DNA of 64,000 nucleotides from positions 310,001 through 374,000 of the forward strand of contig JALENN010000010.1 of NCBI GenBank assembly GCA_022767745.1, given 5' to 3'. The translations under genes were made by a program, and so were the position numbers. Shown here in pieces: positions 38,902 through 40,982 of this stretch. Each line of letters opens with the position of its first letter. The stretch's first letter is position 1. The stretch comes from Alistipes sp. GTDB taxonomy: Bacteria; Bacteroidota; Bacteroidia; Bacteroidales; Rikenellaceae. The notes beneath the pieces are model-generated. The model saw nothing but the letters and a program-made list of their open reading frames with translations. It did no database searches and had not been told where the DNA came from.

Positions 38902-38932
38902 TTGTTATTAATAAATTTTATTATTAGTTTTG
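38902..38932 (+). promoter_or_regulatory. Predicted promoter of the ilv-leu operon
   Basis: TTG (38902-38904), 20 bp, then TAGTTTTG (38925-38932), a good fit to the Bacteroidota TTTG-N19-TAnnTTTG pattern in an AT-rich setting. Transcription would begin near 38940, giving about 220 nt of leader before ilvD. Confidence 0.65.
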
Positions 38933-39004
38933 CAAAGACAAAGATGGAAACCGGGCGGCACAACCACTGGCGACCATGACAAAAGAACCAAACCTGAAAC
39001 AGCG

Positions 39005-39061
39005 ATGACAAGCAGCCTGCATATTATTATTAGCCTAATCCTCGTGGTCTTGCGTAGATAA
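39005..39061 (+). CDS. ilv-leu operon leader peptide (attenuator)
   Basis: A complete 18-codon frame, MTSSLHIIISLILVVLRR, ending in TAA at 39059-39061. Ten residues are Ile, Leu or Val, and nine of the ten residues 7-16 (IIISLILVVL) are branched-chain. This is the composition of a regulatory leader peptide for a combined Ile/Val/Leu operon. It lies between the operon promoter and two competing RNA hairpins, and the antiterminator arm starts 2 nt after its stop codon. Too short for standard gene finders. The product itself is expected to have no other function. Confidence 0.85.
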   Translation: MTSSLHIIISLILVVLRR

Positions 39062-39062
39062 C

Positions 39063-39114
39063 GGGAGAAAGGTTGTGTATATATGCGGACGTAATTATAT
39101 GAGGCCTTTCTCCC
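39063..39114 (+). promoter_or_regulatory. Predicted antiterminator hairpin
   Basis: GGGAGAAAGG (39063-39072) is exactly complementary to CCTTTCTCCC (39105-39114), a 10-bp stem that can extend by two G-U pairs. The second arm is also the first arm of the terminator, so the two structures exclude each other. A ribosome at the leader stop would cover the first arm; one stalled on the Ile/Leu/Val codons would leave it free. Confidence 0.8.
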
Positions 39115-39135
39115 ATGCGGGGGAAAGGCCTTTTT
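39103..39135 (+). terminator. Attenuator (intrinsic terminator) in the ilv-leu leader
   Basis: GGCCTTTCTCCC (39103-39114) pairs with GGGGGAAAGGCC (39119-39130) over 12 bp with one G-U pair, closed by a 4-nt loop and followed by TTTTT (39131-39135). It ends 26 bp before the ilvD ATG and would stop transcription when branched-chain amino acids are plentiful. Confidence 0.88.
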
Positions 39136-39161
39136 CGATACAAGAAAAAAGAATTCGGACC

Positions 39162-40982
39162 ATGAAACACCTCTTACGAAGCGCCGCGACCACAACGGGT
39201 CGCCGTATGGCAGGAGCCAGGAGCCTGTGGCGCGCAAACGGAATGACCAAGGAGCAGATGGGCATGCCCATAATCGGCATAGCCAACTCGTTCACACAGA
39301 TGGTTCCCGGCCACGTGCACCTGCATGAAATAGGACAATACGTCAAATCGCTCATCGAGGCCGAAGGGTGTTTCGCCGCCGAGTTCAACACCATAGCCAT
39401 CGACGACGGCATAGCCATGGGCCACGACGGCATGCTCTACTCGCTCCCCTCGCGCGACATCATCGCCGACAGCGTCGAGTACATGGCCAACGCCCACAAG
39501 GTCGATGCGCTGGTATGCATCAGCAACTGCGACAAGATCACGCCCGGCATGCTTATGGCAGCCATGCGTCTGAACATCCCCACCGTATTCGTTTCGGGCG
39601 GCCCGATGGAGGCCGGATCGTACCGCGGCCGCGGCGTCGACCTCATCGACGCCATGGTGATGAGCGCCGACGCCTCGTGCACCGATGCCGATGCCGACGA
39701 GATCGAGGCCACGGCATGCCCCGGATGCGGATCGTGCTCGGGAATGTTCACCGCCAACTCGATGAACTGCCTCAACGAGGCCATAGGCCTGGCGCTGCCC
39801 GGCAACGGCACCATAGTAGCCACGCACGAGAACCGCAAGCGTCTCTTCGCCCGCGCCGCCAAGCTCATCGTCGAGAACGCCAAGCGCTACTACTTCGAGG
39901 GCGACGACTCGGTTCTGCCCCGATCGATAGCGACCAAGGCCGCCTTCGAGAACGCCATGTCGCTCGACATCGCCATGGGCGGCTCGACCAACACCGTGCT
40001 GCACCTGCTGGCCGTGGCACACGAGGCGGGCGTAGATTTCACGATGAAGGACATCGACCGCCTCTCGCGCAAGATTCCCGTACTGTGCAAGGTGGCACCC
40101 AACGGCTCGTACCACGTGCAGGACGTCAACCGCGCCGGCGGCATCATGGGCATACTCGGCACGCTCGCCGCGGCGGGCCTCATCGACACCACGGTCGGCC
40201 GCGTCGACTCGCCGTCGCTGGCCGCCACTCTCGACAAATACTACTTCGGCTCTCCCGCGTTCTGCGACGAGGCCCGCACGGCATACCTCAGCGCCCCCGC
40301 CGGCCGTTACAGCCGCCAGATGGCATCGCAGGCCGAATACTACCCCACGATGGACGACGACCACGCCACGGGCTGCATACGCGACATGGAGCACGCCTAC
40401 TTCAAGGACGGCGGCCTGGCCGTACTCTTCGGCAACATCGCGCGCAAAGGTTGCATCGTCAAGACGGCGGGTGTCGATCCCGCACTGTTCCGCTTCAGCG
40501 GCACGGCCAAGGTATTCGAGTCGCAGGAGCAGGCCATGCACGGCATCCTCAACGACGAGGTCAAGGCGGGTGACGTGGTCGTAATACGCTACGAGGGCCC
40601 CAAGGGCGGCCCCGGCATGCAGGAGATGCTCTACCCCACCTCGTACCTCAAGTCGAAGCACCTCGACAAGGTGTGCGCCCTGATCACCGACGGACGCTTT
40701 TCGGGCGGCACGTCGGGACTCTCGATAGGACACGTATCACCCGAGGCGGCATCGGGCGGCGAGATAGGTATCATCCGCGACGGCGACACCATCGACATCG
40801 ACATACCGTCGCGCTCGATATCGCTGCGCATCACCGACGAGGAGCTGGCCGCACGCCTGGCCGCATGGCACGACCACCGTCCGCAGAACCGCGACCGCGT
40901 GGTGCCGCAGTCGCTCAGGGCATACTCGCTGCTGGTAAGCTCGGCAGACCAGGGCGCCGTGAGAATCGTCCCCGAGGAGTAA
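39162..40982 (+). CDS. ilvD: Dihydroxy-acid dehydratase
   Basis: Dehydrates dihydroxy acids to the 2-keto acids of Val and Ile. 606 residues from the ATG at 39162 (MKHLLRSAATTTGRRMAGAR); the frame is open back to 39075, but that part is the attenuator. Iron-sulfur ligands are in ISNCDKITPGM and ACPGCGSCSGMFTANSMNCL. The C-terminal DGRFSGGTSGLSIGHVSPEA is diagnostic. First structural gene of the operon. Confidence 0.96.
   Translation: MKHLLRSAATTTGRRMAGARSLWRANGMTKEQMGMPIIGIANSFTQMVPGHVHLHEIGQYVKSLIEAEGCFAAEFNTIAIDDGIAMGHDGMLYSLPSRDIIADSVEYMANAHKVDALVCISNCDKITPGMLMAAMRLNIPTVFVSGGPMEAGSYRGRGVDLIDAMVMSADASCTDADADEIEATACPGCGSCSGMFTANSMNCLNEAIGLALPGNGTIVATHENRKRLFARAAKLIVENAKRYYFEGDDSVLPRSIATKAAFENAMSLDIAMGGSTNTVLHLLAVAHEAGVDFTMKDIDRLSRKIPVLCKVAPNGSYHVQDVNRAGGIMGILGTLAAAGLIDTTVGRVDSPSLAATLDKYYFGSPAFCDEARTAYLSAPAGRYSRQMASQAEYYPTMDDDHATGCIRDMEHAYFKDGGLAVLFGNIARKGCIVKTAGVDPALFRFSGTAKVFESQEQAMHGILNDEVKAGDVVVIRYEGPKGGPGMQEMLYPTSYLKSKHLDKVCALITDGRFSGGTSGLSIGHVSPEAASGGEIGIIRDGDTIDIDIPSRSISLRITDEELAARLAAWHDHRPQNRDRVVPQSLRAYSLLVSSADQGAVRIVPEE

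Follow-up and report, generated by a model that had tools for sequence, protein, structure and literature searches.

The window analysed here, a 64,000-nucleotide stretch of an Alistipes sp. genome, carries on its forward strand nine genes for the synthesis of branched-chain amino acids, which were named from matches to NCBIfam models. The first is ilvD (dihydroxy-acid dehydratase, 39162-40982), and it is followed by ilvB (acetolactate synthase large subunit, 41030-42769), ilvN (acetolactate synthase small subunit, 42786-43352), ilvC (ketol-acid reductoisomerase, 43398-44444), leuA (2-isopropylmalate synthase, 44487-46010), leuC (46029-47420), leuD (47440-48042), leuB (48109-49197) and ilvA (threonine ammonia-lyase, 49227-50495). 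The start codons of ilvB and ilvA were picked by eye, and ilvN scored above the cut-off of TIGR00119 and below that of NF008864. From their spacing and common strand we infer that ilvD-B-N-C, leuA-C-D-B and ilvA form a single transcript. The ilvD genes of the two best named relatives, both uncultured Alistipes, were 96% identical. A match to ilvD was seen in only 11 of 37 genomes of the genus; amino-acid synthesis in the genus looks patchy, and many of the assemblies are incomplete.

Upstream of ilvD, and on the same strand, lies a short open reading frame, MTSSLHIIISLILVVLRR, that starts with ATG at 39005 and ends with TAA at 39059-39061. The first-pass annotation had described an 18-codon frame with 10 Ile, Leu or Val residues as the leader peptide of a transcription attenuator, and direct reading of the sequence confirmed both the length and the composition of the predicted peptide. 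Given the NCBIfam gene names, these residues cover the three amino acids that the downstream genes make, so that the match claimed between leader and operon was borne out. Directly 3' of the stop codon, beginning 1 nt after TAA, is arm 2, GGGAGAAAGG (39063-39072), the 5' arm of the putative antiterminator. Its exact complement, arm 3, CCTTTCTCCC (39105-39114), is common to the antiterminator and to a terminator hairpin formed by arms 3 and 4 (39103-39130; 12 pairs including one G-U), which is followed by a tract of five T residues (39131-39135). The terminator (39103-39135) thus sits between the leader frame and ilvD, the first gene. When the sequence was re-read, the coordinates given in the first pass for the frame, stop codon, arm, hairpin and T tract were all exact, with the ATG of ilvD at 39162. 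No tandem repeats were found around the leader. An upstream mini-frame, MTKEPNLKQR (38976-39008), whose TGA overlaps the leader ATG as ATGA, has no counterpart in the closest relatives, L026 and L027, and was dropped as a candidate.

Attenuators of the enterobacteria follow a four-arm scheme, of which the first-pass annotation contained arms 2, 3 and 4 only. Folding of the region revealed arm 1 (39017-39050), a protector that lies within the leader frame and forms a helix with arm 2 and the stretch 3' of it as far as 39088; the presence of arm 1 inside the frame makes the classical four-arm layout complete. When each piece was folded alone, the predicted energies were -26.2 kcal/mol for the 1:2 hairpin (39017-39088), which overlaps the regulatory codons, -26.0 kcal/mol for the 2:3 antiterminator and -25.3 kcal/mol for the 3:4 terminator. 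The antiterminator and the terminator exclude each other through their common arm 3, and the three hairpins are modelled as mutually exclusive. The predicted minimum-energy fold of 38940-39136 consists of 1:2 plus 3:4.

Conservation of an Ile/Leu/Val-rich frame among relatives, which the first pass had named as a check on its reading, was monitored across the order Bacteroidales. A match to ilvD was present in 175 of 393 genomes, and one upstream region was taken from each of 150 of them; the 25 genomes left out had partial matches only or fell outside the matches listed. A leader was scored as a frame that starts with ATG, spans 10-45 codons, contains 7 or more Ile, Leu or Val residues in 12 and has its stop codon 40-300 nt before ilvD. 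A terminator was scored as a T-tailed hairpin within 110 nt, and an antiterminator as a pairing score of 7 or more for arm 2. Leader, terminator and antiterminator occurred together at 94 of the 150 loci, as compared to none of 1500 dinucleotide shuffles and none of 150 reverse strands. With this ATG-only detector, the 56 loci that lacked the full set comprised 14 with leader and terminator, 10 with a leader only and 32 with none, whereas 12 shuffles had leader and terminator, 119 shuffles had a leader only, and 22 reverse strands had a leader only. The Ile/Leu/Val-rich frame by itself was found at 118 of the 150 loci and in 131 of the 1500 shuffles. At least one full case was seen in 37 of the 48 families sampled, and at least a leader in 42, the family labels having been copied by hand. 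Of the 24 relatives sampled first, 21 were full, the exceptions being L019, L020 and L021. Arm 2 was present at 94 of the 108 loci with leader and terminator, compared to 509 of 5400 sequences in which the stretch in between had been shuffled, so that its threshold is reached by chance in 9% of shuffled stretches.

When the leader search was repeated on the 150 loci with control groups of residues, nine groups without Ile, Leu or Val gave no full locus, the best partial count among them being 6 (KRN). Groups that contain Leu or Ile gave some full loci (FLM, 4; LSF, 17; LRS, 11; KNI, 14), which we attribute to overlap with the same Ile/Leu/Val leaders. We also scored 80 named loci, two of which (L081 and L096) were removed on account of short upstream sequence. 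The remaining 78, some of which come from the same genomes as unnamed loci, comprised 44 full loci, 10 with leader and terminator, 4 with a leader only and 20 with none, a few of these misses having short upstream sequence (157 nt in L056). Full cases included Odoribacter laneus (L046), Parabacteroides faecis (L055), P. gordonii (L057) and a Mediterranea bin (L101). The 20 leaderless loci included bins labelled Spirochaetes/Spirochaetaceae, Fibrobacteres and Opitutales, as well as five of the eight loci labelled Prevotella or Prevotellaceae. For L094, a Prevotella locus also in that group of eight, the scored frame looks spurious, and the Prevotellaceae-labelled L064 and L065 had a leader with no terminator detected.

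These counts bear on a rival explanation, namely an ordinary terminator that closes an upstream transcript or a small RNA, with an Ile/Leu/Val frame that arose by chance. Terminator-like hairpins are indeed common, three being found in 2 kb where shuffles predict 2.2, and chance frames occur in the shuffles as counted above. However, the combination of frame, terminator and arm 2 is seen in most of the loci and families sampled and in none of the shuffles.

Compensatory change in both stems had also been proposed as a check in the first pass, and was found. An alignment of 36 rows was built from the 22 relatives, among the 24 sampled first, that have a leader and a terminator, together with 14 loci picked by hand for variety; since the hairpin scorer favours candidates with a fitting arm, a mild selection bias is present in it. 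In the 2:3 helix 93.7% of cells were paired, with two-sided changes at 7 of 9 pairs, and in the 3:4 helix 94.6% were paired, with two-sided changes at 9 of 10 pairs. None of 500 shuffles reached either helix on any of five measures, and shifting the partner by one column lowered all measures, with pairing dropping to 57-64%. As arm 3 is common to both helices, the changes must be triple. Among 238 loci, 148 full cases yielded 85 distinct arm triplets in which the core of arm 3 varied (CCTTTCTC, CCATTCTC, CCTTTCCA and CCGATTTC are examples) and arms 2 and 4 mostly fitted it. In this set, which was selected on pairing and is biased to that extent, and in which a few rows are out of register, the share of cells in which arm 3 paired was 90.7% with its own arm 2 and 78.1% with arm 2 of other loci; the corresponding values for arm 4 were 96.3% and 80.8%. 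A plain terminator has no need of arm 2, and yet arm 2 covaries with arm 3.

The protector helix showed a modest signal across loci, and the sequences offer weaker evidence for it than for the other helices. The 1:2 duplex was stronger with its own partner than with a swapped one at 71 of the 94 full loci (p = 6e-10), with a mean z of -1.25, z below -2 at 28 loci and z above 1 at two. Relative to the end of the stop codon, arm 2 began at a median of -4 nt over these 94 loci (quartiles -6 to 0, 10th to 90th percentile -21 to +3, range -34 to +27).

The first-pass annotation had also included a promoter. A scan for sigma-70 promoters found none, and we used the Bacteroidota promoter motif instead; a candidate of that type is present. 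It consists of a -7 box, TAGTTTTG (38925-38932, of the form TANNTTTG), and of TTG at 38902-38904 as a -33-like element, both on the forward strand. The form described for the phylum, in the portion of the source available, is TAnnTTTG and TTTG, and the TTG of the window corresponds to three of the four bases of the TTTG at -33 in B. fragilis (PMC7366714). TANNTTTG was found within 170 nt upstream of the leader at 79 of the 94 full loci compared to 134 of 940 shuffles, and a TTG 17-23 nt 5' of it at 70 of the 94 compared to 29 of 940. A conserved promoter box just 5' of the leader also argues against a plain terminator with a chance frame, which we consider very improbable.

Initiation in the Bacteroidota mostly disregards Shine-Dalgarno motifs. 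A Shine-Dalgarno-like word before the leader start was seen at only one of the 94 full loci, and about two are expected from shuffles, which gives no indication of a Shine-Dalgarno signal at these leaders. A further rival is that the leader frame serves mainly translation or RNA stability, either by reinitiation of ribosomes on ilvD or by a peptide that acts in trans, with premature termination as a minor effect. Reinitiation after leader genes has been proposed for many bacteria, with a stop-to-start peak at 11-14 bp in the Bacteroidetes, in the accessible part of PMC4833913. However, the leader stop lies 100 nt before the start of ilvD with a T-tailed hairpin in between, and the arm that covaries is that of the antiterminator, and we regard this reading as having little chance of being correct.

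Among the Ile and Leu codons of the window leader are three ATT, one CTA and one TTG, which are rare: in seven of the nine operon genes ATT accounted for 6 of 199 Ile codons, and CTA and TTG for 0 and 3, respectively, of 182 Leu codons. Leader codons for Ile, Leu and Val were rarer than the ilvD of the same genome predicts at 83 of 86 full loci, a set that includes some near-duplicates, with a mean z of -2.83 and z below -2 at 54 loci. The average was -3.55 at the six loci whose ilvD has a GC content below 45%, indicating that AT bias alone is insufficient to account for the rarity, although pairing needs or local base composition could contribute in part. For enterobacterial attenuators, the available part of PMC1183508 links sensitivity to codon choice, describes rarity alone as an oversimplification, and gives CUA as a biased regulatory codon of the leu attenuator.

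A candidate second leader of this kind was observed elsewhere in the same genome. Upstream of hisG, on the minus strand (L159:2274-2221; G000:C11), lies a His-rich frame, MIRFNHIHHHHILRKVR, followed before hisG by a terminator-like hairpin and an arm that pairs with it, and on sequence grounds this is a probable second leader-peptide attenuator. hisG was present in 13 of the 31 genomes searched, and 12 of these 13 loci carried a His-rich frame with a terminator-like hairpin after it, while L272 had none nearby; the arm score was at least 7 at 8 of the 12. No match to Anth_synt_I_N (trpE) was found in the genome of the window, which left no trp leader for comparison.

We searched the window and 13 related loci (10 ilv and 3 his) with the 4227 models of Rfam release 15, and no match reached the gathering score; a search by E-value gave two weak snoRNA matches only. 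RF01692, which we take to be a trp leader, was among the families without a match in the window or the related loci. In the part of PMC2864571 available it is described, as Bacteroid-trp RNA, as a cis-regulatory RNA of the Bacteroidetes. A structured leader on an amino-acid operon might also act as a sensor through a bound protein, through tRNA in the manner of a T-box or as a riboswitch, the frame being incidental, but the empty Rfam search, the coding content as the conserved element and the His-rich leader before hisG make this the least probable of the explanations considered.

Two Ile/Leu/Val attenuators in series were observed upstream of ilvD at six loci (L077, L106, L235, L240, L248 and L024), while the window has a single unit. 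Five of these emerged by criterion from 240 ilvD upstream regions, and L024, whose first frame starts with GTG, was recognized by eye. L235, L240 and L248 belong to one family, and L106 and L024 to two others. Each tandem locus has one TANNTTTG in the available sequence, 5' of the first leader, so that the doubled version reads as two complete attenuators for the same signal in series behind one promoter. Salmonella mgtCBR similarly has two leader-ORF attenuators in one leader; it differs, as far as the available part of PMC3641672 goes, in responding to two signals (ATP and proline) and in belonging to a non-biosynthetic operon. In the tandem loci, unlike mgtCBR, the frames of both units are rich in Ile, Leu and Val.

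Outside the order, 24 loci (L135-L158) comprised 8 with a leader and a terminator-like hairpin, 4 with a leader only and 12 with none, and the antiterminator threshold was reached at none of the 24. Ile/Leu/Val-rich frames with terminator-like hairpins were seen upstream of distant ilvD genes in L140, L146, L150-L152, L154, L155 and L158, several of which have in common the pattern CCAAGTCC...CTTCGGGA. By eye, these loci possibly represent a different attenuator layout.

Taken together, we consider it highly probable on comparative grounds (roughly nine chances in ten) that 38925-39135 is a ribosome-mediated transcription attenuator for the ilv-leu genes. The attenuation proposed in the first pass is thus supported by the conserved frame, the covarying stems and the protector hairpin, and it also fits the codon choice, the placement of the stop codon and the His-rich leader before hisG. 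When charged tRNA is ample, a ribosome at the stop codon (39059-39061) would mask arm 2 (39063-39072), leaving arms 3 and 4 to form the terminator, and transcription would end near 39135. When Ile, Leu or Val is scarce, a ribosome would stall at codons 5-16, inside arm 1, which could then no longer hold arm 2, and the pairing of arm 2 with arm 3 in the antiterminator would allow RNA polymerase to continue into ilvD. In an untranslated leader, the 1:2 and 3:4 hairpins would both form, and transcription would again be terminated. The leader would be started without a Shine-Dalgarno motif, and the three ATT codons together with CTA and TTG may sharpen the response.

While this kind of mechanism is well known, its Bacteroidales ilv-leu member is new to the literature searched, in which the phylum is represented by general hints only. 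The enterobacterial ilvGMEDA, ilvBN and leu attenuators resemble it in having an amino-acid-rich leader peptide, a competing terminator and antiterminator, and biased regulatory codons. In contrast to them, the window has a Bacteroidota-type promoter, no match to an Rfam leader family and one leader ahead of a combined ilv-leu gene set, and Bacteroidales leaders lack a Shine-Dalgarno signal. Corynebacterium ilvBNC (the ilvB-II motif) likewise has a uORF or attenuator on a branched-chain operon, but in the Actinobacteria and on a different operon, and the likeness is by description in the available parts of PMC10272879 and PMC11857589. Within the phylum, there are clues to leader-peptide attenuation in Flavobacterium psychrophilum (PMC9723704, whose main text, so far as available, contains no occurrence of 'ilv'), and a general hint comes from the sORFs of B. 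thetaiotaomicron in the accessible part of PMC7366714. No report of a leader on a Bacteroidales ilv operon was present among the matches listed, although an attenuation comparison by Lopatovskaya et al. (2010) may cover the Bacteroidetes; the portion of the main text of PMC2965389 available gave no match for Bacteroidetes names or ilv.

Leader-peptide attenuation requires a ribosome that starts promptly and stays close behind RNA polymerase, and to our knowledge the tightness of transcription-translation coupling in the Bacteroidota is unsettled. On balance we favour, with some reservation, an attenuator that is order-wide and probably ancestral to the Bacteroidales, that relies on a Shine-Dalgarno-free start and would require close coupling of ribosome and polymerase, and that has been doubled in several lineages. 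The absence of a match to any Rfam model at the loci tested marks a gap in annotation. A covarying attenuator in 37 of the 48 sampled families is indirect evidence that coupling works in the Bacteroidota, and the attenuator itself offers a ready reporter for testing it. The versions duplicated in series are a natural system in which to see how a dose response is shaped by a pair of similar attenuators and, if the proposed mechanism is true, the attenuator would predict how common gut bacteria tune the synthesis of their amino acids.
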